Shown here one piece after another: positions 3,067 to 34,970 of a DNA stretch of 46,358 nt; the first letter of the stretch is position 1; each line of letters starts with the position of its first letter. Location of the stretch: contig CAIXKV010000078.1 of the NCBI GenBank assembly GCA_903920145.1, positions 1-46,358 on the forward strand, read 5' to 3'. The notes under the pieces were generated by a model. The model did no database searches and was not told where the DNA came from. It saw only the letters and a list, made by a program, of their open reading frames with translations. Both the position numbers and the translations under genes were made by a program. This DNA is from an uncultured Rhodospirillales bacterium (GTDB taxonomy: Bacteria; Pseudomonadota; Alphaproteobacteria; Azospirillales; Azospirillaceae).

Positions 3067-6000
3067 GTGGTATCCTCTGTGTCGTCATACACTGCGACGC
3101 AAATCCTCAATCTGTCGAAGACGACGATTGCCGGCCTGAAAGCCGCAGATATCGCGGCATTGTCGGCAACCCAGATCGGGGCGTTCAGCACGACAGAGAT
3201 CCAGGAACTGAGTTCGGCTCAGATATCGTGGCTGTCCACCACGCAAATGCAGGAATTGGCGACGACCCAGATCGCGGCCTTAACAAAAAGTCAATTGGCT
3301 TTCAGTTCCTCCCAACTCTCGGTTCTGTTGGATGTCCAAATCGAGGCCCTCGGAACCGATATTGCGGCCCTCAATAGCACCCAACTCAGAGGCCTAACCA
3401 GCACCGAAGTCAGTGCCCTGACCACCGACCAAATCAGCGCCCTGGCGTCAACCCAGCTCGCAGCCCTGACCACCACCGGCATTACCGGCCTGGACGATAC
3501 CCAGATTGCGGAGCTGACTACCACTCAACTGAGCGGCCTGACCGCAGCCCAAGTCGTGGCCTTGAGCACCACCCAGATCACTCAGCTCTCCACCAACCAG
3601 CTCGCGGCCCTCACCACCATCCAACTCAAGGGATTGAGCAGCACCGACATCGGGGTGCTGTCGTCATCCCAACTCGCCGCCCTCAGTTCCACACAAATTG
3701 GGTCTTTTAACACCTTCCAGATCCAGGGCCTGACCGGCGACCAGATTGCTGCTCTGACCACAACCCAATTCGGAGCCCTAACCACCACCGAACTGGGGGG
3801 CATGACCACAACCCAGATTGCTCAATTATCCACCACCCAGATCGCGGCGCTCACCGGAACCCAGCTTACCGGCCTTGCCAACACCGGGATCGCCGCGCTC
3901 TCCGGTGACCAAATCGCCGCCCTCAGTACGTCCCAGGTCTCCTCGCTCACGACCACCCAGATCCGGGGTCTGACCAGTGCCGAAGTCGGCGCTTTAAGTA
4001 CGGCCCAACTCGGCGCCCTCACCTCGACCCAAATGGCCGCCCTGAGCGCCACCGGGCTTGGCGGTTTGGTCGACACCCAGATTGCGACGCTGACCACCAC
4101 CCAACTGGCCGGACTTGCCTCGACTCAACTGACGGCCTTGAGTTCAACCCAGATTGACCTGTTGTCCACCAACCAGCTCGCAGCCCTGACGTCCACTCAG
4201 ATCAAGGGCCTGACCAGCACCGGCATTGGCACGCTGTCCACCGCCCAGATCAGCGCGCTCTCGACCACCCAAGTTGCGGCGCTGGCGGCGACACAAATCG
4301 CCGCTCTGAGTGGCGACCAAATCGCCGCCCTCGGCACCACTCAACTGGGCGTCTTAACCACCACCCAGATGCGGGGCTTGACCAGCACCGAAGTCAGTGG
4401 TCTGAGCACAATCCAACTCGGCGCCCTCAGTTCCACCCAAATCGGAGCTTTGTCCTTCGCCGGAACCGGCGGCTTGGCCGATACCCAGATCGCGGCGCTG
4501 TCCACCACCCAACTGGCCGGATTGACCTCAACCGAAATGAGTGGGCTGTCCGCCACGGCACTGGGCGCCCTGTCCACCACCGCATTAGCGGCCTTCAGCA
4601 CCACCCAATTAAGCGGTCTAACCAGCACGGGCATCGGCGCGCTATCCACCACTCAATTCACCGCTCTCGGCACCAGCCAGATTGCGGCGCTGACGACGCT
4701 CCAGGTCTCGGGCCTGACCGGCGACCAACTCGGCGCCCTGACCGGCACCCAACTTGGCGCCTTGACCGCAACCGAACTCGGGGGCCTGACCACCACCCAG
4801 GTCGGCCTGCTGTCCTCAACTCAAATCTCGGCGTTCACGGCCACCCAGATCAAAGGCTTGACCAACACCGGCCTCGCCGCCTTGTCCGGGGACCAGCTCG
4901 GAGCCTTGACCACCACCCAAATCGCGGCGCTCACCACCGCTCAGACCCGAGGACTGACCAGCACCGTAATCGGCGCCCTCACCACCACCCAGATTGGCGC
5001 CCTGACCGCCACCCAAATTGCTGCACTATCCGCCGCTGGCATCAACGGCCTCGCCGATACTCAGATTGCCACCCTGAGTCCCACTCAACTGGCCGGACTG
5101 ACTCCAACTCAGATGGGCGCCCTGTCCAGCACGGCGGTTGGTGCCCTGACCACCACCGAACTGACGACCCTGACCACCACCCAGTTGGATGGCCTGACCA
5201 GCACCGGAATCAGCGCCCTCTCCGCCACCCAGCTTGACATCCTCAGTACCAAGCAAGTCGCATCCCTGACCGCCAGCGAGATCAAGACTCTCAGCGGCGA
5301 TCAGCTCGGCGCTCTGACCGCAACCGAACTCGGGGCGCTGACCGCAACCGAGCTTGGCGCCCTGACCGCCACCCAGGTCGGCCTGCTGTCCTCAACTCAA
5401 ATTGCCGCCCTAACCACCACTCAACTTCAAGGATTGACCAGCACCGGCATCGGGGCCTTGTCCGGGGATCAACTCGGCATTCTGTCCACCACCCAACTGG
5501 CGGCGCTGATCTCGACCCAACTTAGAGGATTGACCAGCACCGAGGTTGGGACACTCACCACCACCCAGCTTGGCGCCCTGGCCTCGACCCAAATCGCCGC
5601 CCTGACCGCCACCGGAGTTGGTGGGCTGGCCGATACCCAAATCGCGGCGCTGACCACCACCCAACTGAGCGGCCTGACTTCCACCCAAATCGTCGGGCTA
5701 TCCAGCACGGCCGTCGGCGCCCTGACCGCGACTGAACTGACGGCCTTGTCCACCACCCAACTGGCTGGCCTGACCAGCACCAACATCGGCGCCCTGTCCA
5801 CCGCCCAACTCGGCTTGTTGAGCACCAGACAAATTGCGGCCCTGACCGTAACCCAAGTCGAAGGCTTAACCAGCGGTCAGTTGGCCGCCTTGGCCCCAAC
5901 CCAGCTCGGTGCGCTGACCGCAACCGAACTCGGAGGCCTGACCACCACCCAGATCGGCCAACTCTCCACCACCCAGATTGCAGCCCTGACCACCACCCAA

Positions 6001-9000
6001 GTTAGAGGTCTGACCAGCACCGGACTGGCCGTGCTCTCCACCAATCAACTCGGCGCTCTGACCACCACCCAACTGGCCGCTCTGACCACCAATCAAGCCA
6101 GGGGCCTGACCAGCACCGAAGTCAGCGCCCTGACCACCACCCAATTGGGCGCCTTCACCGCGACCCAGATCGGCGCCTTGACCGGGGTTGGCGGGTTGGC
6201 CGATACCCAAATTGCGGCGTTGACCACCACTCAGTTGGCCGGCCTAACGTCAACCCAGATGGCCGGGTTATCCACCACGGCGATCAGCGCCCTGACCGCG
6301 ACCGAATTGGCGGCGCTGTCCACCACCCAGTTGAGCGGCCTGAGCAGCACCGGCATCGGGGCGCTCTCCACCACTCAGTTTGGCGAACTGAGCACGAGAC
6401 AGGTTGCGGCCTTGACCGCAGCCCAGATCGCTGATCTGAGCAACGACCAGCTTGGCGCCCTGATCTCAACCCAGGTCGGCGCCCTGACCACCACCGAGCT
6501 TGGAGACCTGACCAGCACCGAAATCGGCGCCTTGACCACCACCCAACTGGGCGCACTCAGTTCCAGCCAAATCGCCGCGCTGTCCGCCGCCGGGATCGCC
6601 GGGTTGGTCGACACTCAGATGGCGGCCCTGTCCACCACTCAGCTCGCCGGCTTCACCGCAACCGAAATGGGGGCGCTGTCCAATACAGCACTGAGTGGCC
6701 TGACCACCTCCGAACTGGCAGCCCTCACCACCACCCAGCTCAGTGGCCTGACCAGCACCAGCATTGGGGCGTTGTCCACGGCCCAGTTCGGCGCCTTGAG
6801 TGCCAAGCAAATTGCGGCCCTGTCCACCACCCAGATTAAGGGCCTAACCAGCGATCAGCTTGGCGCCCTGACCACCACCCAGCTTGGCGCCTTGACCGCC
6901 ACCGAATTGGGGGGGCTGACCGCAACCGAAGTGGGCGGACTGTCGACAGCCCAGATCGCGGCTCTTTCCACCACCCAGATTCAGGGCTTGACCAGCACCG
7001 GACTGGCCGCGCTGTCCATAAATCAGCTCGGTGCCCTGTCCACCAGCCAGCTTGGCGCTCTGACCACCACCCAACTGGGCGGCCTGACCAGCACCGAAGT
7101 CGGCGCCTTGACCACCACCCAATTGGCCACTCTGACGGCCACCCAACTGGGGGGCCTGTCCGCCGTCGGAATGACCGGGCTGGCCGATACCCAGATGGCG
7201 GCGCTCACCACCACCCAACTGACCGGCCTGACCACAACCCAAATGGCGGCGCTGTCCACCGCCCAGATGGACCTGCTATCCAATACGCAACTGGTGGCGT
7301 TCACGTCGACACAACTTAATGCACTGGCTGGCAGCGATATTGCGGGCCTCAGCACAACCCAGCTTGCCGCTCTGACCACCACCGAGATTGCGGCCCTCTC
7401 CACCACCGAAATCAGCAATCTGAGCAGCGCCGAGATCGCAGCCCTTAGCGCAACCCAACTCGCGGCCCTCACCACCACTCAATTAGCGGTGTTGACCACC
7501 ACCGAGGTCGGCGCCCTGACCACCACTGAATTAGCCGCACTGACCACCCGGCAAGTGGCGGGGCTAACCGGAACCGAAATAGCGGCGCTATCCACCACCC
7601 AACTTGGCACATTGGCCGCAACCCAAATGGCGGCACTGTCCACCAGTGAAATGCGGGGCCTGACCAGCACCCAGGTTGGAGCCTTGACCACAGCCCAACT
7701 CGGCGCGCTCAACGCCACTCAGATTGGCGCCCTATCTACCACCGGCATCGCTGGACTGACCAGTTCCCAGCTCGCCGCCCTGACCGCCACCCAGCTCACC
7801 GGCCTGACCGCCACCGGAATGGGAGCACTGTCGACCACAGCGGTCACAGCCCTAACCGCAACCGAGCTGGCCGCCCTGACCTCCACCCAGATCAGGGGGT
7901 TGACCAGTACCAGCATCGCCGCCTTAACAACGGGCCAATTGGGTAGCCTGAGCGCCTCCCAAATCGCACAGCTCACCACCACCCAGGTTAAGGGCCTGAC
8001 CGGCACCGAAATGGGCGCGTTGTCCACCACCCAGCTCGCGGCTTTAACCACAACGCAAATCGGGGCTCTCTCCACCACCGGCATTGGTGGCCTGACCCCG
8101 ACCCAGTTGGCTGGACTGACGACAAACCAGATCGCCGCCATGACGGCGACACAGATCGGGGGGCTATCCCAAACACAAATCCAGTCGCTGACCACCGGGC
8201 AACTGGCCGCCCTGACCACCACCGAAATGGCCGGCCTAACCAACACCCAAATCGCAGCACTCTCAACGACCCAGACGGCGGCCCTGACCACCACCCAGTT
8301 CGCGGCGCTATCCACCACCACCGTTAGTGGCCTGTCGACAACCGAAGTGGCGGGGCTGTCCACCACGCAACTCACGGCGTTGACCGCCACCGGCATTGGC
8401 GATCTGACCGACAGCCAAATTGCGGCCCTAACCCCCACCGAAATCGGCAGCCTGACCACCACCCAGATCAAGGGCCTGACCACCACTCAGATCGGCGACC
8501 TCACCACCGCCCAATTGGGAGCGTTGACCACCACCCAGGTCAGGGCACTGTCCACCACCGAGATCAGCGGCCTGACCTCGACCCAGGTTGGCGCCCTGAC
8601 CACCACTCAGATCGGCGCCTTCTCCACCACCGCCATCGCCGCCCTTACCACCACCGCCGTCAGCGGCCTGACCACCACCGAGCTGGCGGCATTGTCCACC
8701 ACTCAGTTGACCGCCTTAACGTCCTCCCAGTTCGGTGCCTTGTCCACCAGCCAACTGGCGACCCTAACCTCCTCGCAACTGAGCGCCCTCAGCACCACCG
8801 AACTTCGCGGTCTGGTCGATACCCAGATTGCCGCCCTGACGGCAACCCAGATCGGCGCTCTGTCGGCCACACAGATCGCGGCCTTGTCCACCACCGGGAT
8901 CAGCGGCCTGACCACCAGTGAAATGGCAGCCTTGTCCACGACCCAGTTGGCCGCCCTGACCGCGACCGAAGTCGGCGCCCTGGTCGATACCCAGATGGCG

Positions 9001-12000
9001 GCGTTGAACACCACCCAGTTGGGCGCCCTGACAACGACAGAAATCACGGCTCTTTCGACCACGGCCGTCAGCGGCCTAACCACCAGCGAACTCGCGGCCT
9101 TGTCCACCCAGCAACTCGCCGCCCTGACCCCAGCGCAAGTGGGAACGCTGGCAGAAACTCAAATATCGGCCTTCTCCACCGCCCAGATTTCGGCTCTCTC
9201 GACCACGGGACTCAGCGGCCTGCTCGACACCCAGATGGCGGCCTTGTCCACAAGCCAGCTTGCCGCCCTGTCCAGCAGCCAAATCGCGGCCTTAAGCACC
9301 ACCGCCATAAGCGGACTGACCACCGCCGAAATCGTGGCGCTGTCCACCACTCAAGCCGCCGCCCTAACCACCACCGAAATCAGCAGCCTGGCCACCACCC
9401 AGATTGAGGCCCTGACGTCCGCCAACCTTGCCAGTCTGACCACCACCCAGATTCGGGGCCTAACCGCCACCGGAGCCGGCGCCCTGCTTCCCTCCCAGAT
9501 CGGCGCGTTCAACATCACCCAGGTCGCGGCCCTCTCCACCACCGCCATGGGCGCCTTGACCAGCAGCGCCGTCAGTGCCCTGACCACCACCCAGTTGGGC
9601 GCCCTGACCACCACCCAGGTCGCGGCCCTCAGCACCACGGGCGTTGCCGGCCTGACCTCTACCGAACTCGCCGCCCTAACCACCCGGCAGCTCCAGGCCC
9701 TCACCCCGTCACAATTCGGAGCCCTGTCCACCACCCAGCTCGCAGCCCTGACCACCACCCAACTCGGTGTCCTGACCACCACGGAGATCAGCGGGCTGGT
9801 GGATACCCAGGTTGCCGCCCTGACTGCGACCCAGATCGCGGCGCTGAACACCACCCAGATCGGGGCCCTGAGCACCACCGGAGTCAGCGGCCTGACCTCG
9901 AGCGAAATCGCAGCGTTGTCTTTCACCCAACTGGGCGAACTGACCTCGACCGAAATTGGGGCCCTGACCACCACCCAGATGGCGGCCTTGTCCACCACTC
10001 AGCTTTCGGCCCTGACCACCACCCAAGTCAAAGGCTTGACCAGCACCGAGCTTTCGGCCCTGACCACCACCCAGCTTGGCGCCCTGACCGCTTCGCAAAT
10101 AACGGCCCTGACCGCCGCCGAGATCGGCGGGTTGACCAGCAGCATCGTGACCGCCCTAACCACGACTCAGGTGGGCGCCCTAAGCCCGACCCAAATGGCC
10201 GCTCTCAGCCCCACCGGCATTACGGGCCTCACCACCACCCAACTGGCGGCCCTGACCTCCCGACAACTGGCAGCCCTCACCGCCACCGAAGCCGGCGCTC
10301 TGACCACCACCCAACTGGGGGCTCTGACCACCACCCAACTGGGCGTCCTGACCACCACCGAGATGAGTGGCTTGGTCAGTAGCCAAATCGCCGCCCTGAC
10401 CACCACCCAACTGACCGCCCTCTCGACCACCCAACTGGCGGCGCTATCGGCCACCGCTATTGATGGCCTGTCATCCAGCCAGATCGCGGCCCTAACCGCC
10501 ACCGCCCTCGGTGCGCTCACCGCCACCGAACTGGGTAACCTGACCATCACCCAAGCCAGCGAACTGACCACCGCCGACATGGCGGCCTTGACCTCGACCC
10601 AACTCAACGGCTTGACCAGTACTGAAGTCGGCGCCCTGACCACCACCCAAGTGGACGCCCTAAGCCCCTCACAATTGGCCGCGCTCGGCACCACCGGCCT
10701 CTCCGGTCTGACCAGTACCCAGGTTGCGGCCCTGACCACGACACAGATGGCTGCCCTCAGCACGACACAGATGGCCGCTCTCAGCACCACCGGCATTCCT
10801 GGTCTCACCACCACCCAACTGGCGGCCTTGACCACCCGGCAACTGGCGGCGCTCACCGCCACCGAAACCGGCGCCTTGACCTCGACCCAGGTCGCGGCCT
10901 TGACCACGACTCAACTGGGGCTGCTATCCCCAGCTCAAATCAGCGGATTGAGCGATACCCAGGTTGCCGCCTTGACCTCGACTCAGATCGCGGCCCTGGC
11001 TTCGACCCAAATTGCGGCGCTGTCTCCCACCGGGATCAGCGGCCTGACTGATAGCCAAATCGCGGCCTTGAGCACCACCCAGCTTGGCGCCCTAACCGCA
11101 ACCGACATGGCGGCGCTATCAACCACCGCGCTCGCGGGCCTCACCACCACCAACATTGCGGCCCTGACTTCGACTCAGCTTGAAAGTCTGTCGGCGACGG
11201 GAATGGCCGCCCTGACCACCGCCCAGATTGCCAGCCTGACCACCACCCAGACCGCACTCCTGTCCACCACAGAAATTGGTGGGCTGGTGGATACCCAGGT
11301 CGCCGCACTCTCCACGGCTCAGATTGCGGCGCTGTCCACAACCCAGATCGAGGCCCTGTCCACCACCGGAGTCAGCGGTCTGGTCGACACCCAGATTGCG
11401 GCGCTGACCACAACCCAAGTGGCGGCTTTGACGCCAACCGACATGGCGGCCCTATCGACCACGGCGATTTCCGGCCTGACCGCCCGTGAATTCCAAACAC
11501 TCACCACCACCCAATTTATGAATCTGTCGGCCACCGGCATCACCGGGCTGTCGACCACCCTGATCAGTAACCTGAGCACAACCCAGATCGGGCTCCTGTC
11601 CACCACGGAAATCAGCGGTCTGGCTCCAGCCCAGATTGCGGCGCTGTCCACCACCCAATTCGCAACCCTGACGCCAACGCAAGTCGGCGCCCTTTCAGCC
11701 ACCGGAATCACCGGCCTGACCGAAGGCGAGATTGATTCCATGACCCTGACCCAGATCAGCGGCTTGACCACCTCGCAAATCGGCGCCTTGATGACCACCG
11801 AAATTGGGCTCTTTTCCAGTACCGATATTGCAGCGATGACCGTCACGCAACTTGGCGCTCTGGTGCGGATGCAGCTCAGAACCCTGAGCGTATCCCAGCT
11901 TAACGCCCTGTCCACCACTCAAGTCTCGTCGTTGGGCACCGATCAGGTTTCGAATCTGACCGCAACCCAGTTAAGCACTCTGACAACCACTCAATTGGGC

Positions 12001-12264
12001 GCCTTGACCTCGAGCCAGCTCGGCGCCCTGACCGCCACTGAACTTGGCGCCCTAACCACCACCCAAATCTCATCCCTGGCGGCAACCCAGATCAGCGGCC
12101 TGACCACCACCACCGTTGCGGGCTTGACCGCCACCACCATCGCCGCCCTGACCACCACAGAACTGGAAGCCTTCACCCCCACTCAGATCAGCGCCTTTAC
12201 CAGCACTCAACTCGGTAGCATGACCGCCGATCAGATCGCGGCCTTGAATGATGCCGCGCTATAA
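3067..12264 (+). CDS. Giant Ser/Thr-rich octapeptide-repeat protein
   Basis: A 3065-residue protein made almost wholly of about 380 copies of an eight-residue unit. The consensus is x-[AG]-L-[ST]-[ST/x]-[TS]-[QE]-[ILVM], for example AALTTTQI or GLTSTEV. Roughly a third of residues are Ser or Thr. Aromatic and basic residues are rare and I saw no Cys. Register is strict for thousands of bases; exceptions are two seven-residue units near the N-terminus and one six-residue unit near 6180. Start is GTG 3067, preceded by a strong GAGAGGGGG ribosome-binding site. No signal peptide, membrane segment, RTX motif or autotransporter barrel is visible, so the export route and location are unknown. The next gene, 69 bp downstream on the same strand, is an OGT-like glycosyltransferase, so I infer O-glycosylation of the repeats. 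I do not recognise the family; such proteins are often loosely labelled adhesin or beta-strand repeat protein. An intracellular scaffold is also possible. Confidence 0.9.
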   Translation: MVSSVSSYTATQILNLSKTTIAGLKAADIAALSATQIGAFSTTEIQELSSAQISWLSTTQMQELATTQIAALTKSQLAFSSSQLSVLLDVQIEALGTDIAALNSTQLRGLTSTEVSALTTDQISALASTQLAALTTTGITGLDDTQIAELTTTQLSGLTAAQVVALSTTQITQLSTNQLAALTTIQLKGLSSTDIGVLSSSQLAALSSTQIGSFNTFQIQGLTGDQIAALTTTQFGALTTTELGGMTTTQIAQLSTTQIAALTGTQLTGLANTGIAALSGDQIAALSTSQVSSLTTTQIRGLTSAEVGALSTAQLGALTSTQMAALSATGLGGLVDTQIATLTTTQLAGLASTQLTALSSTQIDLLSTNQLAALTSTQIKGLTSTGIGTLSTAQISALSTTQVAALAATQIAALSGDQIAALGTTQLGVLTTTQMRGLTSTEVSGLSTIQLGALSSTQIGALSFAGTGGLADTQIAALSTTQLAGLTSTEMSGLSATALGALSTTALAAFSTTQLSGLTSTGIGALSTTQFTALGTSQIAALTTLQVSGLTGDQLGALTGTQLGALTATELGGLTTTQVGLLSSTQISAFTATQIKGLTNTGLAALSGDQLGALTTTQIAALTTAQTRGLTSTVIGALTTTQIGALTATQIAALSAAGINGLADTQIATLSPTQLAGLTPTQMGALSSTAVGALTTTELTTLTTTQLDGLTSTGISALSATQLDILSTKQVASLTASEIKTLSGDQLGALTATELGALTATELGALTATQVGLLSSTQIAALTTTQLQGLTSTGIGALSGDQLGILSTTQLAALISTQLRGLTSTEVGTLTTTQLGALASTQIAALTATGVGGLADTQIAALTTTQLSGLTSTQIVGLSSTAVGALTATELTALSTTQLAGLTSTNIGALSTAQLGLLSTRQIAALTVTQVEGLTSGQLAALAPTQLGALTATELGGLTTTQIGQLSTTQIAALTTTQVRGLTSTGLAVLSTNQLGALTTTQLAALTTNQARGLTSTEVSALTTTQLGAFTATQIGALTGVGGLADTQIAALTTTQLAGLTSTQMAGLSTTAISALTATELAALSTTQLSGLSSTGIGALSTTQFGELSTRQVAALTAAQIADLSNDQLGALISTQVGALTTTELGDLTSTEIGALTTTQLGALSSSQIAALSAAGIAGLVDTQMAALSTTQLAGFTATEMGALSNTALSGLTTSELAALTTTQLSGLTSTSIGALSTAQFGALSAKQIAALSTTQIKGLTSDQLGALTTTQLGALTATELGGLTATEVGGLSTAQIAALSTTQIQGLTSTGLAALSINQLGALSTSQLGALTTTQLGGLTSTEVGALTTTQLATLTATQLGGLSAVGMTGLADTQMAALTTTQLTGLTTTQMAALSTAQMDLLSNTQLVAFTSTQLNALAGSDIAGLSTTQLAALTTTEIAALSTTEISNLSSAEIAALSATQLAALTTTQLAVLTTTEVGALTTTELAALTTRQVAGLTGTEIAALSTTQLGTLAATQMAALSTSEMRGLTSTQVGALTTAQLGALNATQIGALSTTGIAGLTSSQLAALTATQLTGLTATGMGALSTTAVTALTATELAALTSTQIRGLTSTSIAALTTGQLGSLSASQIAQLTTTQVKGLTGTEMGALSTTQLAALTTTQIGALSTTGIGGLTPTQLAGLTTNQIAAMTATQIGGLSQTQIQSLTTGQLAALTTTEMAGLTNTQIAALSTTQTAALTTTQFAALSTTTVSGLSTTEVAGLSTTQLTALTATGIGDLTDSQIAALTPTEIGSLTTTQIKGLTTTQIGDLTTAQLGALTTTQVRALSTTEISGLTSTQVGALTTTQIGAFSTTAIAALTTTAVSGLTTTELAALSTTQLTALTSSQFGALSTSQLATLTSSQLSALSTTELRGLVDTQIAALTATQIGALSATQIAALSTTGISGLTTSEMAALSTTQLAALTATEVGALVDTQMAALNTTQLGALTTTEITALSTTAVSGLTTSELAALSTQQLAALTPAQVGTLAETQISAFSTAQISALSTTGLSGLLDTQMAALSTSQLAALSSSQIAALSTTAISGLTTAEIVALSTTQAAALTTTEISSLATTQIEALTSANLASLTTTQIRGLTATGAGALLPSQIGAFNITQVAALSTTAMGALTSSAVSALTTTQLGALTTTQVAALSTTGVAGLTSTELAALTTRQLQALTPSQFGALSTTQLAALTTTQLGVLTTTEISGLVDTQVAALTATQIAALNTTQIGALSTTGVSGLTSSEIAALSFTQLGELTSTEIGALTTTQMAALSTTQLSALTTTQVKGLTSTELSALTTTQLGALTASQITALTAAEIGGLTSSIVTALTTTQVGALSPTQMAALSPTGITGLTTTQLAALTSRQLAALTATEAGALTTTQLGALTTTQLGVLTTTEMSGLVSSQIAALTTTQLTALSTTQLAALSATAIDGLSSSQIAALTATALGALTATELGNLTITQASELTTADMAALTSTQLNGLTSTEVGALTTTQVDALSPSQLAALGTTGLSGLTSTQVAALTTTQMAALSTTQMAALSTTGIPGLTTTQLAALTTRQLAALTATETGALTSTQVAALTTTQLGLLSPAQISGLSDTQVAALTSTQIAALASTQIAALSPTGISGLTDSQIAALSTTQLGALTATDMAALSTTALAGLTTTNIAALTSTQLESLSATGMAALTTAQIASLTTTQTALLSTTEIGGLVDTQVAALSTAQIAALSTTQIEALSTTGVSGLVDTQIAALTTTQVAALTPTDMAALSTTAISGLTAREFQTLTTTQFMNLSATGITGLSTTLISNLSTTQIGLLSTTEISGLAPAQIAALSTTQFATLTPTQVGALSATGITGLTEGEIDSMTLTQISGLTTSQIGALMTTEIGLFSSTDIAAMTVTQLGALVRMQLRTLSVSQLNALSTTQVSSLGTDQVSNLTATQLSTLTTTQLGALTSSQLGALTATELGALTTTQISSLAATQISGLTTTTVAGLTATTIAALTTTELEAFTPTQISAFTSTQLGSMTADQIAALNDAAL
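3487..11616 (+). repeat. 576-bp (24-octad) higher-order repeats within the octapeptide gene
   Basis: The variant octad with core GL[AVDS]DTQ recurs with fixed spacing. In the first half it starts at 3487, 4063, 4471, 5047, 5623, 6193, 6601 and 7177. Spacings are 576, 408, 576, 576, 570, 408 and 576 bp, that is 24, 17, 24, 24, 24 (minus 2 residues), 17 and 24 octads. In the second half it starts at 8809, 8977, 9217, 9793, 10369 (GLVSSQ variant), 10945, 11281 and 11377, with further 576-bp steps between 9217 and 10945. The 408-bp spacing is 576 minus 168 bp (7 octads), and 168 bp also occurs alone (8809 to 8977). The gene therefore grew by duplication of long blocks as well as single 24-bp units. 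Confidence 0.85.
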
Positions 12265-12265
12265 T

Positions 12266-12302
12266 ACCGGAGAGCCATAATACAGATAGAGTGCCGGTAT
12301 AA
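12266..12302. repeat. Short inverted repeat after the octapeptide gene
   Basis: ATACCGG and CCGGTAT arms enclose a 20-odd-base AT-rich loop. The left side (ATACCGGAGAGCC) resembles the inverted right end of the 146-bp element with substitutions. It lies between the repeat-protein stop and the glycosyltransferase start and could attenuate read-through. Confidence 0.45.
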
Positions 12303-12332
12303 GATAGAGAAAAAGAGAGCGAGCAATTCATC

Positions 12333-14333
12333 ATGACCGACCTATTAACGCCGGCTTTGATTCAATCGATGGCACGAACCTTTACATTAATTGATCTAAT
12401 TCGTACCGCAGAATCTCTGAAGCAAAACGGACCGGAGCGTTCGGTAGAAACGCTTTACGCCATCTGGATTCAATATAATAGTGATCATCCGTTATTATAT
12501 GCTGCTCTTTTTAATTACGCCGTGATTTTATCAGACTCTGGAAATTTACCGATGGCTCGGGAATGTCTTGAGCGGGCCCTTTCACTAAACGCAGAATTCA
12601 CCCCGGCTTACATCAATCTGGGGCGCATTTACGAGCGCCTGGGGGCGACCGGCGCGGCGGTGATGCAATGGTCCACCGTTCTCGAGAAACTGGCCGCCGT
12701 CACCGGCACCGCGATTGCCCATAAAACAACCGCGTTGAACCAGATTGCCCGCACCCTGGAAACTGCCAACGAGGATGACGTCGCCGAAGACAGGCTCCGA
12801 CAAAGCCTGGAACTCGACAGCCACCAACGGGAAGTCGCCCAACATCTTCTGGCGTTGCGGCAACGGCAATGCAAATGGCCGGTGGTCACGCCCTGGGAAC
12901 GGGTGGGGCAAGAAGCCCTGATAACCGGACTCTCACCACTGTCGGCGGCAGCCTATACCGACGACCCACTGCTACACCTCGCGATGGCTTGGCACTACAA
13001 CAAAACCGACGTCGGCTTGCCCGCTGCGGCCCTAACCGAGTGGCCAAAAGCCATGGCAGCCTCTGGCCCGCTGCGGATCGGCTATCTTTCGTCTGATTTA
13101 CGTGAGCATGCCGTCGGCTACCTAATGGCCGATGTTTTCGCCTGCCATGACCGCAGCGCGGTCGAAGTGTTTGCCTATTACTGCGGTCCCGAAGCCCAAG
13201 ACCCAACGCACCGGCGATTCCAGACTACGGCGGATCACTGGCGATCCATCAATGATCTAGACGACGTCGCCGCTGCCCGCCACATTGCCGATGACGGTAT
13301 CCAAATTCTCATTGACCTGAACGGCTATACCCGAGAGGCCCGATTTAAACTGGTGGCGCTCCGACCGGCACCGATCATTGTCAACTGGCTGGGATTTCCC
13401 GGAACCATGGCGAGTCCCTATCACCATTACATCATTGCCGATGACTGGATTATCCCCAAGGACTCCGAGATGTATTATTCGGAACAGGTGCTCCGGCTGC
13501 CCTGTTACCAACCCAACCAGCGCCAACGCACCACCGCGCCGCGTCCGCCCTCTCGAACCGAGGCCGGACTGCCCGAAACCGGAATGGTCTATTGCTGCTT
13601 TAACGGCGCTCACAAGATCACCCGCTTTACCTTCGAACGGTGGTTGACGATTCTGGCCGGGGTTCCTGACAGTGTCCTGTGGCTCCTCAGCAGCACCGAA
13701 GCCACCCACGAACGCTTAAGGCGCACCGCCGCCTTGCATGGGATCGCTCCCAACCGCTTGATCTTCGCCCCCAAACTGGCCAATCCGGATCACCTGTCCC
13801 GGTATCAGTTGGCGGATCTGTTCCTGGACACCACCCCCTACGGAGCCCACACCACGGCGTCGGACGCGCTCTGGGCCGGTGTGCCGGTCTTAACCCTGAA
13901 TGGCCGCTCGTTCGCATCCCGCGTGTGCGGCAGTCTGGTGCGGGCGGCGGGCCTGCCGGACCTCGTCTGCATGACCGCCACGGAGTATGTTGAGCGCGCC
14001 ATAGCCTTGGGTACGGATCCGGTCCAATTGCGCTCTTACCGAGAGCGGCTAGCATCTGGGCGAGACACCTGCACCTTATTCGACACGCCCTTGCTGGTTC
14101 GCCAGCTTGAAGGGCTGTACGCGACCATGTGGCAAAATCGGATCCAGGGAACCCTCCCCCAGCCTGATCTCTCCAATCTTGATGTCTATCTTGAAGTCGG
14201 AACCCAAGCCAAACATGAAGAGATCGAGGTTCAAACCCTTGAAGACTATCATGGCTGGTGGCGGGAAGCCCTGCTCCGCCGGCATCGCTTGCGCCCGATT
14301 GATCCCGATCGCCGGCTTACAGGCGCTCTGTGA
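12333..14333 (+). CDS. TPR / SPINDLY-family (OGT-like, GT41) glycosyltransferase 1
   Basis: A 666-residue predicted cytosolic enzyme that would transfer a sugar, classically GlcNAc from UDP-GlcNAc, to Ser/Thr of proteins. An N-terminal TPR region (about residues 40-190, e.g. NLPMARECLERALSLNAEFT) is followed by the split OGT catalytic domain from about residue 246 (LRIGYLSSDLREHAVGYL). Conserved features are the His in REHAVGY (about residue 257), a Lys in FNGAHKITRFTFERW (about residue 428, aligned by eye with the UDP-binding Lys of OGT), and HTTASDALWAGVPVLTL (His about 506). SRVCGSLVRAAGLPDLV follows as usual. All key residues look intact, so this is the best candidate for an active enzyme. 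It begins 69 bp after the octapeptide-repeat gene on the same strand, preceded by an AAAGAGAGCGAG stretch that can serve as ribosome-binding site. I infer co-transcription and that the repeat protein is its substrate. Confidence 0.9.
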   Translation: MTDLLTPALIQSMARTFTLIDLIRTAESLKQNGPERSVETLYAIWIQYNSDHPLLYAALFNYAVILSDSGNLPMARECLERALSLNAEFTPAYINLGRIYERLGATGAAVMQWSTVLEKLAAVTGTAIAHKTTALNQIARTLETANEDDVAEDRLRQSLELDSHQREVAQHLLALRQRQCKWPVVTPWERVGQEALITGLSPLSAAAYTDDPLLHLAMAWHYNKTDVGLPAAALTEWPKAMAASGPLRIGYLSSDLREHAVGYLMADVFACHDRSAVEVFAYYCGPEAQDPTHRRFQTTADHWRSINDLDDVAAARHIADDGIQILIDLNGYTREARFKLVALRPAPIIVNWLGFPGTMASPYHHYIIADDWIIPKDSEMYYSEQVLRLPCYQPNQRQRTTAPRPPSRTEAGLPETGMVYCCFNGAHKITRFTFERWLTILAGVPDSVLWLLSSTEATHERLRRTAALHGIAPNRLIFAPKLANPDHLSRYQLADLFLDTTPYGAHTTASDALWAGVPVLTLNGRSFASRVCGSLVRAAGLPDLVCMTATEYVERAIALGTDPVQLRSYRERLASGRDTCTLFDTPLLVRQLEGLYATMWQNRIQGTLPQPDLSNLDVYLEVGTQAKHEEIEVQTLEDYHGWWREALLRRHRLRPIDPDRRLTGAL

Positions 14334-14408
14334 TACCGGCGAGCCCTGATACCGGCGAGCCCTGATACTGACACATCGCCGGTATCGGGCTGCGACGGCG
14401 GCCCGAGG
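14334..14408 (-). repeat. Partial palindromic element between convergent glycosyltransferase genes
   Basis: Two consecutive ATACCGGCGAGCCCTG ends are followed by GATACTGACACATCGCCGGT and a CGGGCTGCGACGGCGGCCCG hairpin. This is the inverted right part of the 146-bp element, with the rest missing and the terminal segment duplicated. It lies between the stops of the two convergent genes, where it can fold into a GC-rich hairpin and may serve as a bidirectional terminator. Confidence 0.7.
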
Positions 14409-14415
14409 ATCGGCA

Positions 14416-16797
14416 TCAACCACACACACGCTCCCGCCAAGCCTGCCGGTAGAAGGCCTCCAATGCCGGAACCGCAGAAGCGTTGCGGTCCTGTTGAAAC
14501 ACCATAGAATTGGCACGCAGGATCGTCCGAAGCTGGAACAAAGCGGGGCGATTCTTGGCAAGGGCAACGGCGGTCGCCACATAGTCATCTTCGCTGGCGG
14601 CGGCATAGAGTCCCAACTCGGGACAGGCTGCAACACCCAAGCGAATCAAAGGTAAGCCCATCCATTGCAGCAGGGTGGCGGTGGTTCCGGCGGTGTAGGG
14701 GAATGGATCCAGGACGATATCAATCTCGGTCAGATACTCGAGCCACGCTTCGAACTGGCATTCGGGACGAAGATCCAGGCGTTCGGGTGGAAAACCGAGC
14801 GCAGCCAATTGCTCAAGCCGCTTTTGCGCGGTGTGCTCCCTCTCGACTCCCGGAGCGACCAGCAACAGGCGGGCATCGGGCAACGCCTCGAGAATCCGGA
14901 TCCAGGCTCGTTGTGCGGGGACACTCACTTTAACGAGGCGGCTCACCGAGCCAAAAGTAATCATCCCCTCGAGCCTTGATGTTGAGTCATCAAGTCTGCC
15001 CTCAGACGCCGGGCGGGCGCATCCGCGCCCTTGGCTTCGCGCGCATGGGCGCGCGGGGCCGCCGTCGCGGCCCGATACCGGCAGTGTGTCATCGTTATAG
15101 CTCGCCGGTATCATTCTCTTCCCACGTAAGAAAGGCGGCGGTGACACTTGGGGCAAAGTCGCCGGGGCGGCAAAAGGCAGAATCAGGAGCGCGACCGCCT
15201 CGGTGCTAAATCGAGGCTCGTCACTGTTCTTGGCGCCACTGCGACTGACAAGCCGATAATCGATCCGGGTCAAGCCGGTTGTGCCAGGATAACCGAGGCA
15301 ACTGATCTGCACCGGCGCCGGTTTCGCCGCAAAGACTGGCAACAGATTCCAGGCGGTATGGCCGGCAATATCGACCAAAATATCAATCCGGTCGTGACGG
15401 ATAGTCTCGATCGCCCCGGCAATGTCCTCGAAAGCCAATATCCGCCAATGATCCGCCTTGCCCCGCAACCGGGCGGTCACAGCATCCGTTTTGCGGGGAA
15501 TGTGGTAGCAAAAAATCTCGAACTGCGTTCGATCATGGCCATCAAGCAGAGGTTCAAAGAAAAATGTGACGGCATGATCGCATAAATCGGGAGAAACATA
15601 ACCAATACGCAGTCTTCGCCCCGCCAATTCCGTCTGATCCGGCGGCAGAAAGGCCGGAGTCGGAAAGCGACTTTCCCAGAAACGGCCAAAGGCTTGGTGC
15701 TCAATAAAAACGTCTTCTGGAGAGGTGGCCGCGTCATGCAACAGACAAAAGAGCAGGTTGCTGTGAAGCGCATAACAGTCGGGGTGACGTTGAAGGCCAG
15801 TGCGAAAGACTTTTGCCGCTTCGCCGGTACACCCGGATAACGCCAAAGCCTTACCCAACGCCGCGTAGCTTTCGGTTGAGCCCTGGCTGTCGACCGCAAG
15901 CCGAGCCGTGCGAATGGCGGTGGCCATATCATCGTCTTTAAGCGCAACCTCGCTGCGGAGCAGATTGAGCTTGGGATCGTTGGGGACTTTCCGCAACGCC
16001 CCATCCAGCCAAGCAGCGGCCTCGATGACCCGGCCCATTTCGCATAGACAGCGCGCCAGCCCCAACAGCGAGGGCTGGTGATCGGGATGGTCAACGGAAA
16101 GGCGCAAGAAACGATCGAGAGCATCGGACAGACGCCCTTCGCTCATCAACAGCTCGCCCTCCAGAGAACGCAACTCTACAGTTTTTCCAGCCTCTGGAAC
16201 TCGCGCCAGCACTGCATGAGCCTCAGGCCATTGGCCCTGGCGCAACAGGAGCAATACGGTATTAGCCACCACGTCCGGGCGCGGCCCCAGGTGCGTGAGG
16301 GCCATTCGGTAAGCGTCGCCGGCCTCGGCCAACCGCCCCAACGCCAACAGGCCGTTCGCCAGATTATACCAAGCATGTCCATGCCCCGGCGCCTGTTCAA
16401 CCAGTGTGCGGTAAGCCGCAACGGCTTCGGCGGTTTTCCCCAGCCGCCGCAAGGCCCACGCCAAGTTAAAACGGGCATCCTGGAGATCGGGCCGATCTGC
16501 GAGCTGGCGAGAAAACCACTCGACCGCTTCGACAATCGCTCCGCATTCCAACGCCGCCACGCCGACTTCATAGGCCAGTTCCGGGTGGTGAGGCGTCAGC
16601 GCCGCCGCCTGTTTCAAAATCGCCAGCGCCTCGTTGGACCGACGAGCCTTCAGCAACAGCTTGCCCATCAGCCGCATCCCTTCCACATGCTGCGGCATCA
16701 CCCGCAGCAGCGACTCAAGGGTGGCTATACTATCCGCACCACGACCGGCCAGAGCCTGATCAAGGGCCTCGCGAAAAAGCACATCGGAATGAGTCAT
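14416..16797 (-). CDS. TPR / SPINDLY-family glycosyltransferase 2, interrupted in frame by a repeat element
   Basis: A 793-residue OGT-like protein. About ten TPR-like units fill residues 5-360, followed by a GT41 catalytic domain starting near residue 400 (LRIGYVSPDLCDHAVTFFF, His about 408; VDIAGHTAWN; ISCLGYPGTTG). The second half resumes at ITFGSVSRLVKVSVPAQRAW (Lys about 623). The nucleotide-site loop is divergent (AGTTATLLQWMGLPL instead of GGHTT..LWAG). Residues about 563-612 (SGRDGGPARPCARSQGRG and flanks) are encoded by a copy of the 146-bp palindromic element and are foreign to the family. Removing them gives a normal FLRGKR-MITFGS junction. The insert lies between the two catalytic lobes, so activity is uncertain. 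ATG 16797 is chosen because the longer frame to 16863 starts inside another repeat copy; AAGAGG lies upstream. The gene is convergent with glycosyltransferase 1 and divergent from glycosyltransferase 3. Confidence 0.85.
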   Translation of the reverse strand: MTHSDVLFREALDQALAGRGADSIATLESLLRVMPQHVEGMRLMGKLLLKARRSNEALAILKQAAALTPHHPELAYEVGVAALECGAIVEAVEWFSRQLADRPDLQDARFNLAWALRRLGKTAEAVAAYRTLVEQAPGHGHAWYNLANGLLALGRLAEAGDAYRMALTHLGPRPDVVANTVLLLLRQGQWPEAHAVLARVPEAGKTVELRSLEGELLMSEGRLSDALDRFLRLSVDHPDHQPSLLGLARCLCEMGRVIEAAAWLDGALRKVPNDPKLNLLRSEVALKDDDMATAIRTARLAVDSQGSTESYAALGKALALSGCTGEAAKVFRTGLQRHPDCYALHSNLLFCLLHDAATSPEDVFIEHQAFGRFWESRFPTPAFLPPDQTELAGRRLRIGYVSPDLCDHAVTFFFEPLLDGHDRTQFEIFCYHIPRKTDAVTARLRGKADHWRILAFEDIAGAIETIRHDRIDILVDIAGHTAWNLLPVFAAKPAPVQISCLGYPGTTGLTRIDYRLVSRSGAKNSDEPRFSTEAVALLILPFAAPATLPQVSPPPFLRGKRMIPASYNDDTLPVSGRDGGPARPCARSQGRGCARPASEGRLDDSTSRLEGMITFGSVSRLVKVSVPAQRAWIRILEALPDARLLLVAPGVEREHTAQKRLEQLAALGFPPERLDLRPECQFEAWLEYLTEIDIVLDPFPYTAGTTATLLQWMGLPLIRLGVAACPELGLYAAASEDDYVATAVALAKNRPALFQLRTILRANSMVFQQDRNASAVPALEAFYRQAWRERVCG
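14964..15109 (+). mobile_element. 146-bp palindromic element inserted in frame in glycosyltransferase 2, ATCA target duplication
   Basis: The element starts TCCCCTCGAGCC and ends GCTCGCCGGT. It is flanked by ATCA at 14960-14963 and 15110-15113, so insertion added 150 bp, a multiple of three. Going inward it shows an AGCCTTGATG...ATCAAG hairpin, a GGGCGGGCGC...GCGCCC hairpin, a GCGCGC-ATGG-GCGCGC hairpin, a GGCCGCCGTCGCGGCC hairpin and a terminal ACCGGC...GCCGGT hairpin. On the gene's strand the frame is open throughout. It has no coding capacity of its own, so it must be moved by factors encoded elsewhere, as MITE- or RPE-like elements are. The copy at 34971 has exactly the same length and also 4-bp flanking repeats. 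Confidence 0.85.
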
Positions 16798-16798
16798 A

Positions 16799-16918
16799 CC
16801 GGCGAGCCTCTTGATTGACACATCGCCGGTCTTCGGGCTGCGACCGCCGCCCCGCGCGCTCATGCGTGCGAAGCCAAGGGCGCGAACGCGCCCGCCCAGC
16901 GTCTTGAGGGCGGCGATG
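16799..16918 (-). repeat. Palindromic element copy between glycosyltransferases 2 and 3
   Basis: A diverged, inverted copy: ACCGGCGAGCC end, CATCGCCGGT, a CGGGCTGCGACCGCCGCCCC arm, then GAAGCCAAGGGCGCGAACGC, ending in GTCTTGAGGGCGGC. The left terminal hairpin is missing. It occupies the space directly upstream of both divergent genes, so it may affect their expression. It also produces spurious N-terminal extensions on both, which I excluded from the gene calls. Confidence 0.8.
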
Positions 16919-17065
16919 GCTGGAAAAGTCCGGGAGGATCAGCGCCTTTCCAACAGGCGGATTCTGGTGTCGATCCTCAAGCCTATCCACTATGGTACCG
17001 ATAGGCTCAGACAAGCCTGCTTCGAAACGCCGTTCTGTGCGGAATGCCCATCTGAAAGTGTGCAC

Positions 17066-19492
17066 ATGAGCAACGATCCCGCAAAAAACGAACAAACGTC
17101 CCAGCTTGATACCTGCCTGACCCTGGCCGGACATTACCATGTGAACGGGCAACTGCGAGAGGCGGAAACGCTCTATCGGCAGATTCTCGCCGTCGACCCC
17201 AATCACCTTATCACACTCAAAAATCTTGGTATTCTACTCTCCAACTCCAATCGCCTCGACGACGCCGCCGATCTGCTAGAACAAGCCAGCCGACTGGATG
17301 CCACCAATGTTTCCCTTGCCACCACCGTTGGCTCGCTCTTGATCCAACTTGAGCGGTATGAGGAAGCGACCTCGCCCTTTCTCCGGGCAATCGCCATTTG
17401 CCCGAACGCCAGCGATGCCCACCTGAACCTCGGCGTTGCATGGTTGCGAGCCGGCATTCCGCGACGGGCCTTACGCAGCCTGCGCCGAGCCGTAGCCCTA
17501 TCGCCCAACCAGAGCAAAACCCATTACTATTTTGGCCGATGCCTACAGGCCACAAACAGCCTTGACGAGGCTGAAATTTGCTATCGCCGCGCCATTGAGC
17601 ATAAAGCGGACCTCGCCGATGCTTGGATGTATCTGGGCATATTACAACTTGAACGGGGCAATATCGCCAAGGCCATCGACGACTGCCGTCGAGCGAGCGA
17701 ACTCGCTCCGAATCAAGCCACGGCCTTCACCAGCCTTGGAAATGCGCTGAATGCTGCGGGGCAGCGTGAAGAAGCCTGCGCCATCTATTGCCGAGCCATT
17801 AAGCTGGATTTTATACAAGAGGAAGCTAACAAAAACTTTGCAAACCTTCTACAGAGTTTATGGAATTCTAATAAATTAAGAAATATTGTTGAATTTTACC
17901 ATTATGCCCGTCAATTAAATCATAAATACAGGCGCTATCTCTTTAAGGGCATGAATGACGTAACGCGTTATGAAATCGACGACAATAAACCAGAAACAAT
18001 GGATGAAACCAGAGTTAGGGCTATTTTCTTTTTTTCAGATATTCTTGAAGATATTGGTCGCGGTAACGAGGCCGAGCAGTGTGCTACGGCTCACCTTAAC
18101 GCGCCGATGGCAGGCGCTCTTTACCATAATTTGCTCGGGTTGTTCTATGGCCGCTCTGGCATCCTTAATAAGGCTGTGGCTGCCCATGATCGAGCGGCCG
18201 CTCTTGATCCCGACAACGTCGTCTACCGCTCCAATCAAATCTTTATGCGTCTTCTTGAACCGGATATGACGAATCATCGTCTTTTTGAGTTCACCAGGAC
18301 CGCCGAATTCAACTCCAATCGCATGATTCAGACTCGCCACTTGACCAAGAAACCTGACAAAGAAAAAACATTACGCATTGGCTATGTCCTTGATCTTCTT
18401 CTATATTCTGATAATATTTATAAATATCTTATGGGACCGATAGTCCATTTCTTAAATACTGAAAAATTTGAGGTCTTTATTTATGGCGACTCTGAGCGTG
18501 GCGTTGAAGAGTCATTAATAAAAATGTTTCCAAAAATTCGCGCATGGAGAAATACTTATGGATTAACGCGCGATCAAGCCCATGATCTTATTCAATCTGA
18601 CGATATTGATATTCTAGTTAATTTGGTTGGTCGGGGTTATTTTATCGAAGATCGGACGCTATCATTCTTTTACAGTCGACCGGCCCCAATCCAGGTCACG
18701 CTTGGCGCCTCAATGACCACCGGCCTTGACGCCATTGATTACTTTATTGCTGATCCCTGGCTGGTCCCGCGTACCGGAACCGAGCAATTTTCCGAGCGTG
18801 TTGTCCGCATTCCCCATGTGTTTGCTTTTCCTCCAAATTTTTGCCTAGCGCCGCCCGTTGCGCGGCCTCCGATGCTTCACTGTGGTCGAATGTCGTTTGG
18901 TTTCTTTGGCAGCACATGCAAACTCAACGACGAGGTGATCGCTCTTTGGTCTGAGGTTCTCACTGCCGTAGAAAATTCCCAACTGCTTATCAGAGGTGGA
19001 TTTTCGAGTGAAACCGCTCGACGATATCAACTTGACCGTTTCTCCCGCCACGGCATCGACGAAAGCCGCATAAAACTGCTACCAAGAACTTTTGAGTATT
19101 TTGATTATTTACAGGGGTACAATGAGATTGATTTATCTCTTGATCCCTTTCCCTATTGCGGTGGGCAAACCACCCTCGAATCCCTGTGGATGGGCGTCCC
19201 CATGCTCACGCTCCCCGGCGAGCGTTGTGTCGGACGGATGAGCCTGTCGATTTTAGGCACAATGGGACTTGAAGCGTTCGCCGCCCGCTCAAAGCAAGAC
19301 TATATCGATATTGCCGTAAAAATTTCGCGCAATCCCGCCCAACTTGCAACATTACGCAACACGTTGCGGGAAACCATGAGAACATCCCGACTGACCAATG
19401 CTCCCGGCTTTGCCCACAACATCGAGCGCACATGGCGTGCCTTATGGCGCCGATGGTGCGAACAGCAATGCACCGATACTGACGCGCCTTGA
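17066..19492 (+). CDS. TPR / SPINDLY-like glycosyltransferase 3 (divergent)
   Basis: An 808-residue protein. TPR units occupy about residues 25-260 (QLREAETLYRQILAVDPN; AEICYRRAIEHKADLADAW), with another TPR near 360-400. A GT41-like catalytic region starts near residue 436 (LRIGYVLDLLLYSDNIYKYL). The segment that carries the catalytic-domain His in relatives (DLREHAVG in glycosyltransferase 1) is replaced here and has no His. The Lys in FGSTCKLNDEVIALW (about residue 619) remains. The sugar-nucleotide loop reads YCGGQTTLESLWMGVPMLTL, with Gln 701 where many have His. It may have a different donor, or act as a partner or pseudo-enzyme. Base composition drops to AT-rich between about 17830 and 18700, unlike the flanks. 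ATG 17066 is chosen because the TPRs start just after it; upstream codons derive from the repeat element and leader. Confidence 0.85.
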   Translation: MSNDPAKNEQTSQLDTCLTLAGHYHVNGQLREAETLYRQILAVDPNHLITLKNLGILLSNSNRLDDAADLLEQASRLDATNVSLATTVGSLLIQLERYEEATSPFLRAIAICPNASDAHLNLGVAWLRAGIPRRALRSLRRAVALSPNQSKTHYYFGRCLQATNSLDEAEICYRRAIEHKADLADAWMYLGILQLERGNIAKAIDDCRRASELAPNQATAFTSLGNALNAAGQREEACAIYCRAIKLDFIQEEANKNFANLLQSLWNSNKLRNIVEFYHYARQLNHKYRRYLFKGMNDVTRYEIDDNKPETMDETRVRAIFFFSDILEDIGRGNEAEQCATAHLNAPMAGALYHNLLGLFYGRSGILNKAVAAHDRAAALDPDNVVYRSNQIFMRLLEPDMTNHRLFEFTRTAEFNSNRMIQTRHLTKKPDKEKTLRIGYVLDLLLYSDNIYKYLMGPIVHFLNTEKFEVFIYGDSERGVEESLIKMFPKIRAWRNTYGLTRDQAHDLIQSDDIDILVNLVGRGYFIEDRTLSFFYSRPAPIQVTLGASMTTGLDAIDYFIADPWLVPRTGTEQFSERVVRIPHVFAFPPNFCLAPPVARPPMLHCGRMSFGFFGSTCKLNDEVIALWSEVLTAVENSQLLIRGGFSSETARRYQLDRFSRHGIDESRIKLLPRTFEYFDYLQGYNEIDLSLDPFPYCGGQTTLESLWMGVPMLTLPGERCVGRMSLSILGTMGLEAFAARSKQDYIDIAVKISRNPAQLATLRNTLRETMRTSRLTNAPGFAHNIERTWRALWRRWCEQQCTDTDAP

Positions 19493-19553
19493 TCGTGACG
19501 CACCGCCGTTCTCAGGCTGCGACCGCAGCCCCGCGCACCCGCCCAGCGTCTGA
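19493..19553. repeat. Fragment of the palindromic element downstream of glycosyltransferase 3
   Basis: It contains CACCGCCGTTCTCAGGCTGC, GACCGCAGCCCCGCGCACCC and GCCCAGCGTC, matching the inverted element core with a large internal deletion. It directly abuts the full copy that follows, suggesting repeated insertion or recombination at this spot. Confidence 0.6.
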
Positions 19554-19700
19554 TACCATCGAGCCTTGATGGTGACACATCAAGGCTGCCCTCAGACGCC
19601 GGGCGGGCGCATCCGCGCCCTTGGCTTCGCGTCCACGAGGACGCGGGGCCGCCGTCGCGGCCCGAGGACCGGCGATGTGTCAGTATCAGGGCTCGCCGGT
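19554..19700 (+). repeat. Full-length palindromic element copy
   Basis: A 147-bp copy starting TACCATCGAGCC and ending GCTCGCCGGT. The third hairpin is the GCGTCC-ACGA-GGACGC type, as at 1-210 and 46237, while the copies at 14964 and 34971 have GCGCGC-ATGG-GCGCGC; both arms changed together. Flanks are CTGA on the left and ATGA on the right, so a clean 4-bp duplication is not seen. The left neighbour is itself an element fragment. Confidence 0.85.
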
Positions 19701-19999
19701 ATGAACATCAAGGCTCGGTCGCATGAGTCCACATGATGCACCATATGATCACTCTGACCTCGGCATCATACATTCCTTCAGTTACAAACAATTCATAATC
19801 AAAATAAATCGCTCTCCAGAGTGATCGCGAAACTGTTTTCCGGCGGTTTGGCCCCGAATGGCTCGCGTATCGGACACAGTTCGGCTGAAATTTTCCCGCA
19901 AACTTGACGTAAACACTTTATCAACAAAGCTATAACGTCGATACTTCTTTGGTGCGTCCACCATCTGCTGGTCTATCGCAAGGGCAAAGGAGCGGTCTC
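19701..19999. other. Intergenic region upstream of the chemoreceptor
   Basis: About 300 bp of more AT-rich sequence. There is no convincing gene; the short reverse-strand frame at 19782-19964 shows no family features. The ribosome-binding site AAAGGAG at 19985-19991 belongs to the chemoreceptor. No certain promoter was identified. Confidence 0.5.
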
Positions 20000-34686: not shown

Positions 34687-34970
34687 GGTTGACGCCACCT
34701 GTCTCAACGCCCCGCACCCCCTTGGCCCGGATTCGAACTGGCGGAGTCAACAGCAGCCCCCTGCAAGCGCCAACGAGAATCGACATCGATCAACAATAGT
34801 AACGATACCGAACCCACCTTCGCTCGCCTTGCGATAGAGCTTCTTCTTTTGCAATCAAACTGACTTGCCGACGGCCAATCCCTTACCGCTTTTCTATCGC
34901 ACTCTCTGCGCTCACACCAACTGACCTTCCGCCTTAATCCATCCGGCTTTGACGGAAGAGAGGGGCCTTA
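34687..34970. other. Intergenic region upstream of the response regulator
   Basis: About 280 bp without a supported gene. It should contain the promoter of the response regulator / kinase operon on the reverse strand. If the element at 34971-35116 were excised, the nuclease gene would run into this region for only 11 more codons before a stop near 34935, so no nuclease remainder lies here. Confidence 0.5.

Follow-up and report, generated by a model that had tools for sequence, protein, structure and literature searches.

How does a protein-coding gene come to carry, in frame, a palindromic repeat that its homologues lack? The question is raised by a 46,358-bp stretch of DNA from an uncultured Rhodospirillales bacterium of the family Azospirillaceae (contig CAIXKV010000078.1 of assembly GCA_903920145.1, positions 1 to 46,358; hereafter, the window), in which an open reading frame (ORF) for a TPR protein with a GT41-type glycosyltransferase region holds an insert of about 50 codons. 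We conclude, with a probability of roughly 0.85, that this insert is a nonautonomous palindromic element resembling miniature inverted-repeat transposable elements (MITEs), which targets TNA trinucleotides, has transposed into the gene, and behaves in the manner of Rickettsia palindromic elements (RPEs).

A 147-bp palindromic element lies in frame within a GT41-type gene

The ORF spans 14416-16863 on the minus strand (815 residues as read) and matches Pfam Glyco_transf_41 at 98 bits together with TPR families, in agreement with the GT41-type catalytic region assigned to it by an original prediction made from the bare sequence. The element occupies 14964-15110 (minus strand, TACC... in coding orientation; 155.6 bits in an nhmmer search) and is bordered by TCA at 14961-14963 and again at 15111-15113, which reads TGA on the coding strand. 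The prediction had rightly described a palindromic, in-frame, stop-free insertion, but its length of 146 bp has to be corrected to 147 bp, as defined by other copies of the family. The window copy differs from the family consensus at 6 of 147 positions and carries point changes at its 3' end, where GGGA stands in place of the family GGTA. Read in the coding direction, the insert gives IPASYNDDTLPVSGRDGGPARPCARSQGRGCARPASEGRLDDSTSRLEGM, rich in Gly, Arg, Ser, Pro, Ala, and Asp, and neither a stop nor a frameshift interrupts the 815 codons. As single-stranded DNA, positions 14950-15120 fold at -48.3 kcal/mol, compared with -31.85 kcal/mol for shuffled sequences (z = -5.27, better than 200 of 200).

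The insert would sit in the linker just before the second catalytic lobe, judging from an alignment with SPINDLY (7y4i). This alignment falls into two pieces interrupted at the insert (query residues 383-558 and 616-811, matching SPINDLY residues 450-626 and 635-843) and thereby bears out the earlier proposal that the insert separates the catalytic lobes. An AlphaFold model built from a three-sequence alignment scored 59.8 in the predicted local distance difference test for the whole protein and less than 50 for residues 396-631, which is too poor for a conclusion on where the insert packs. A partial second copy of the element (16792-16920, plus strand, model positions 4-130, 97.5 bits) overlaps the ORF, as read, at its 5' end. 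Residues 1-22 fall within this copy and the alignment to the orthologue in the same-genus genome G001 begins at Met23; the real start is therefore probably Met23 (16797).

Homologues show the empty site

In G001, the orthologue (a 770-aa frame) reads PPFLRQGRITFGSVSKL opposite PPFLRGKRM[insert]ITFGSVSRL in the window and, with the flanks of the insert joined, the two proteins are 67% identical over 747 positions. The search for an empty site in relatives, which had been suggested as a check, thus had a clear outcome: the insert is absent from six of six aligned homologues, namely those of G001, three Azospirillum genomes, and two metagenome-assembled genomes named Thiotrichaceae and Parabeggiatoa. 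Seven homologues were compared, of which one (L276) was dropped as the script had taken the wrong frame; a further locus, L064, in which only TPR residues 60-247 were matched, was left out of the comparison. Each of the six shows a single gap of 51 residues at the insert. Consequently, the claim that exactly 50 codons were added stands for the DNA, where element and duplication make up 150 bp, but not for the proteins, and deleting the insert does not restore a normal FLRGKR-MITFG junction, which is one codon longer than FLRQGR-ITFG in the orthologue.

A second locus gives an exact fit. In a DUF4175 gene on contig C137 (865-aa frame, 602 bits to PF13779), exactly 50 residues are absent at the same point from three aligned same-genus relatives; a fourth relative (L263) was not recovered, the motif not having been located there. 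Orthologues without the insert were also found for an Fe-S protein, in genome G009, and for GTP cyclohydrolase II, in four relatives, yet both sites lie in variable linkers, so that the length of the empty site is not fixed. For a methyltransferase on contig C148, none of 33 other genomes gave a match at E <= 1e-30, and its flank, used as a query, gave no match either.

Family copies end in inverted repeats and duplicate a TNA target

To describe the family, we used an nhmmer model built from 66 copies and a 1.13-Mb sample consisting of the window and 80 stretches, which were selected by contig number or for the presence of a copy on the contig, and not by in-frame status. The model gave 351 hits, which together cover 3.5% of bases and include 173 of near-full length; since most stretches were preselected as copy-bearing, this share may exceed the genome average. 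Both flanks were available for 116 of the near-full hits, and 78 of these had recognizable termini and a TNA on each side. The family begins with TACC and ends with GGTA, with imperfect terminal inverted repeats (TACC..CGAGC..) around a core of short hairpins, and the ends read TACCNNCGAGCC, bordered by TNA duplications. The two consensus ends are the same at 17 of 28 positions, a value reached by 1 of 20,000 shuffles, and a second 5' variant has 23 of 33 positions in common with the 3' end.

The TNA trinucleotides at the two ends are equal in 63 of the 78 copies, against an expectation of 26 based on base frequencies; the target duplication is therefore 3 bp long. A fourth duplicated base fits only 15 of the 63 copies with matched TNA. 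As such, the 4-bp ATCA duplication originally proposed for the window copy gives way to TCA, and its extra A is due to chance. The commonest length is 147 bp (33 of 78 copies), and the length is divisible by three in 45 of 78. At three loci (L003, L086, and L089), alternative 5' modules (TACCAACGGCCCTAGACAATG...CCGTTGG) are attached to the same core, which suggests a mosaic element with exchangeable ends.

Element length and target duplication preserve the reading frame

With 147 bp from the element and 3 bp from the duplication, an insertion adds 150 bp and the reading frame is preserved. All 33 copies of 147 bp are stop-free in frames +0, +2, and -0, where about 3.4-4.3 copies with a stop would be expected per frame; frames +1 and -1 always contain a stop, and frame -2 does so in 19 copies. 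When the 45 well-bounded copies of any length are considered, some carry stops in +0, +2, and -0. Frame +0 reads the TNA as a codon, often TGA or TAA, and many hits to the +0 peptide consequently lie in frames no longer than the element itself. Frame +2 (PASYNND...), in which the TNA is not read as a codon, is used by five of the six in-frame cases found in the sample.

Among the 33 copies we saw no sign of selection for one frame, as +0, +2, and -0 are equally clean and the copies are not independent. We regard it as doubtful that the element has evolved toward readability and spreads through genes as a portable disordered peptide, in which case it would be a protein invader of separate origin from RPEs whose hairpin core is conserved in structure across Azospirillaceae. 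What speaks for this idea is that the common length, once the duplication is added, is divisible by three and that frame +2 is indifferent to the TNA. A 60-codon coding-potential classifier was dropped because it separated coding from noncoding sequence poorly.

Copies judged to be in frame occur in other genes

Among 284 hits covering at least 60 model columns, 20 were spanned by open frames extending at least 60 codons to both sides, and 6 were judged convincing by Pfam matches and reading by eye. We ascribed the other 14 to chance, to nested elements, or to frames prolonged upstream past a likely start. Since 114 of the 351 hits lay within 160 bp of the end of a stretch, these could hardly reveal a spanning frame. 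A separate search with the frame +2 peptide (at least 150 hits), combined with earlier hits, was used to pick stretches mostly for long frames. The copies in DUF4175, in a nonribosomal peptide synthetase (NRPS), and in GTP cyclohydrolase II come from such chosen stretches and not from an unbiased sample. Altogether, we judge that ten in-frame copies lie in nine genes, the GT41-type gene of the window included.

A second TPR glycosyltransferase carries its copy between TPRs (C4:1702-1857, frame +0, TTA duplication), and in the C148 methyltransferase (10516-10670) the Methyltransf_11 match is split into two stretches. The same contig has a truncated element at 13328-13436 in an unnamed protein without a Pfam match. 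The copy in the Fe-S protein lies at C133:27789-27943, and in a hybrid-kinase receiver domain (C243:11372-11526) the PF00072 match ends at the insert. The NRPS on C137 (a 2433-residue frame) holds two copies in its condensation region, at 12296-12451 and 13250-13386 of L220; the first stands directly before MHHAVGDG, and extra partial element sequence lies beside both. The GTP cyclohydrolase II copy is at 4920-5075 of L221 (contig C171). At E <= 1e-40, this enzyme is matched once in the own genome and once each in four sister genomes.

The family is abundant in one genome and shares a hairpin core with relatives

A 28-bp core pattern, with up to three mismatches allowed, has 477 matches in the 4.26-Mb genome, whereas the reversed pattern, used as a control, has none; a first search of this genome, in which 40 of 868 candidates were scored, had given at least 58. 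In this assembly of 269 contigs, many listed copies are located at the end of a contig, and the true copy number may thus exceed the assembled one. A 38-bp core pattern occurs 444 times in the own genome versus 5, 1, 0, and 0 times in the other four genomes of the genus, which suggests a recent burst in this lineage, unless diverged copies evade the pattern.

A query with the whole element found matches in 20 of 59 genomes, its own among them; outside the genus, the matches listed mainly cover the core. The whole architecture is seen in two copies of genome G031, which are 156 bp long and flanked by TCA..TCA and TGA..TGA duplications. A search of plasmids with the window copy gave no match; with relatives' copies as queries, it gave matches in Azospirillum and in one Niveispirillum record, and copies like those of G031 occur in 16 Azospirillum records. 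The earlier placement of the host in an alphaproteobacterial order other than that of Rickettsia is plausible in light of these related copies in Azospirillum and Niveispirillum, A. ramasamyi belonging to Rhodospirillales. In A. lipoferum and A. ramasamyi (L270 and L271), a copy fills the short gap between the convergent stop codons of MarC and paaK, where it could act as a terminator.

We aligned 17 cores, 1 from the own genome and 16 of the 31 relatives' copies. The remaining 15 were identical or close duplicates, had hairpin 3 replaced, or were weak, and their omission favors helix 2 in the count. In this alignment, 95.1% of the cells in three hairpins are paired, and both sides have changed in 11 of 20 pairs; covariation scores 0.376, compared with 0.098 for shuffled and 0.014-0.052 for slid alignments. 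Such covariation of stems across genera argues that the core is kept as a structure, although template-switch repair of imperfect palindromes could give the same pattern without selection. In one genus among the relatives (L044, L046, L050, and L061), a longer stem takes the place of hairpin 3, and some copies stand directly before a possible start codon. At gathering score, the only Rfam match in the window is a tRNA; positions 14900-15180 gave two matches far below that score.

Transposition and its alternatives

In the proposed mechanism, an element with imperfect terminal inverted repeats would be moved in trans by a DDE-type transposase and would insert at TNA. Its 147 bp plus the 3-bp duplicated target would keep the frame, with three of six frames normally stop-free, and the GT41-type gene would gain a stretch of about 50 residues, presumably translated, in the linker between its two catalytic lobes. 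At least eight other genes appear to have been invaded likewise, and such insertions may survive by sitting in tolerant linkers and loops.

Several observations weigh against this reading. At the GT41 junction, one Met codon lies beyond the 50 explained by insertion; we take it as a small independent change, and insertion alone does not account for it. Clear ends or a TNA are lacking in 38 of the 116 flanked near-full copies, and the TNA is unequal in 15 of the 78 copies that have one at both ends. The convincing in-gene copies are a small minority of the 284 hits, so that the element is mainly intergenic. Finally, an autonomous parent was not found. TNA duplication and terminal inverted repeats point to a DDE-type transposase as the mover, and IS5-like groups with TNA targets are known. 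The genome has five DDE_Tnp_1 matches, none inside a pair of ends with equal TNA, a search confined to this family and not extended to other transposases such as those associated with repetitive extragenic palindromic (REP) sequences. Weak end-like matches occur at two of the five loci, and a third has element copies on both sides with unequal TNA. Pairs of ends 400-3500 bp apart with equal flanks were few in the 1.13-Mb sample, and seven are listed. The longest frames in four of these wide pairs, read by eye, did not resemble a DDE transposase; we take them to be a fumarase, an IS607-like serine recombinase, an alanyl-tRNA synthetase, and an OmpA-like protein. The IS607-like frame, at L134 (48-2976, contig C211), lies between two near-full to complete element copies. 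In the remaining three pairs the frames measure 80, 89, and 356 aa, and the 356-aa frame repeats the OmpA-like one already named.

The strongest competitor, which we nonetheless consider rather unlikely, is that the gene is a decaying pseudogene whose frame is open by chance. Because 147-bp copies are stop-free in three of six frames, up to half of in-gene insertions could remain open without any selection, and 50 residues beside a catalytic lobe could well inactivate the enzyme. A decaying gene is hard to reconcile with an ORF of this length free of stops and frameshifts, with its identity to the G001 orthologue across the joined flanks, and with the Lys shortly after [ILV]TFG, which is conserved in every aligned GT41 sequence; comparable insertions in DUF4175 and in GTP cyclohydrolase II, the latter with its single match in the genome, also argue against it. 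We find it improbable that the family is instead of the REP/REPIN type, moved by an IS200/IS605-like, REP-associated tyrosine transposase (RAYT). REP/REPIN elements are not known to make a target duplication, and a 3-bp TNA duplication is not expected from RAYT-type single-strand insertion; the duplication is present here, and the unit, bounded by terminal inverted repeats, measures 147 bp rather than 20-40 bp. The element is palindromic, high-copy, and clustered (65 of 277 neighboring hits lie less than 30 bp apart), as this alternative would have it, and REPs within ORFs are described for several bacteria in the excerpted text of PMC3733652.

Two further possibilities have very little probability. 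The insert might be removed after transcription or skipped in translation, giving a protein without it, as its strong multihairpin structure and covarying stems could suggest; the frame is open throughout, however, so that removal is not needed, and no Rfam family matches the element at gathering score. An assembly artefact, in which repeat copies were misjoined into the gene, might be suspected from the many contigs and from the copies at their ends. The window copy, with its six differences from consensus and its matched duplication, argues against such a misjoin, as do flanks that continue one gene aligned to one orthologue and the several independent in-frame cases. Least probable is an ancient GT41 domain lost elsewhere, for which we found no support: all six homologues lack the insert, whose sequence is that of a genome-wide repeat.

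Comparison with known palindromic elements

RPEs are described as elements of about 105-150 bp found in frame within Rickettsia genes in the portions available of PMC10969869, PMC2229807, and PMC2635572, with the work of Ogata et al. (2000, 2002) cited in the first two; according to PMC2229807, likewise in part, a Gmk protein carrying an RPE is translated and active. The present family resembles RPEs in size (105-146 bp for RPEs in the excerpt of PMC2229807), palindromic form, terminal inverted repeats, and open frame, as well as in combining in-frame insertion into several unrelated protein genes with intergenic copies. The RPE-like behavior foreseen at the outset is thereby confirmed for a high-copy palindromic repeat with an empty site in a sister genome, the comparison resting on behavior and description and not on sequence. 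The two differ in that a 3-bp TNA duplication is measured here, whereas the RPE duplication is listed as "?" in that excerpt. They differ also in the far greater number of copies (477 core hits), in the GC-rich core of several hairpins, and in a host near Azospirillum instead of an obligate intracellular one.

Being high-copy, under 300 bp, and without a transposase gene of its own, and having terminal inverted repeats and a target duplication, the element has the structure of bacterial MITEs such as Correia/NEMIS, RUP, and ERIC. Those elements are mostly A+T-rich with TA ends as summarized in the excerpt of PMC2229807, in contrast to the TNA duplication and GC-rich core found here, and no parent insertion sequence turned up in the searches described above. 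GTAG/CGTC REPs in ORFs, as presented in the accessible part of PMC3733652, likewise enlarge proteins in frame as palindromes, outside Rickettsia too. In that part, they are units or dimers of 20-40 bp, with GTAG REPs often tied to tyrosine transposases, whereas the present copies are mostly 147 or 165 bp plus the duplication. Judged on termini and length rather than on internal hairpins, our family is not a 20-40-bp palindrome with a GTAG or CGTC end, and its TNA duplication also sets it apart from REP/REPIN elements. None of the papers listed by searches of the open PMC library for this repeat family describes it, as judged by titles and the beginnings of abstracts.

As far as the excerpted sources go, palindromic repeats that invade proteins in frame are known above all from the obligate intracellular bacteria Rickettsia and Wolbachia. 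The present host, a relative of Azospirillum, has a further high-copy family with a measured duplication, its sister genomes are nearly free of it by the 38-bp pattern, and metabolic genes such as that for GTP cyclohydrolase II are invaded too. The pairs of filled and empty sites can be used to ask how proteins tolerate an insert of 50 residues and whether such insertions are neutral.

Other features of the window

Further copies of the element are spread over the window. A third, partial element lies just downstream of the GT41 stop codon (14346-14404, plus strand, 37.7 bits). Two near-full copies on the minus strand lie at 19551-19705 (TCA duplication, 156.1 bits, with a weak inverted hit overlapping at 19475-19587) and at 34968-35120 (TAA duplication, 156.6 bits). 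One contig end has a tandem array of 105-bp core units (1-263, minus strand, from the model search) and the other a partial copy (46234-46353, minus strand, 124.1 bits). A solo end module (45222-45256, plus strand, 20.9 bits) is an inverted match to 34969-35003. The tRNA gene is located at 44649-44721 (Rfam RF00005), and positions 3067-12264 hold a 3065-aa ORF built of very many 24-bp (8-residue) repeats.

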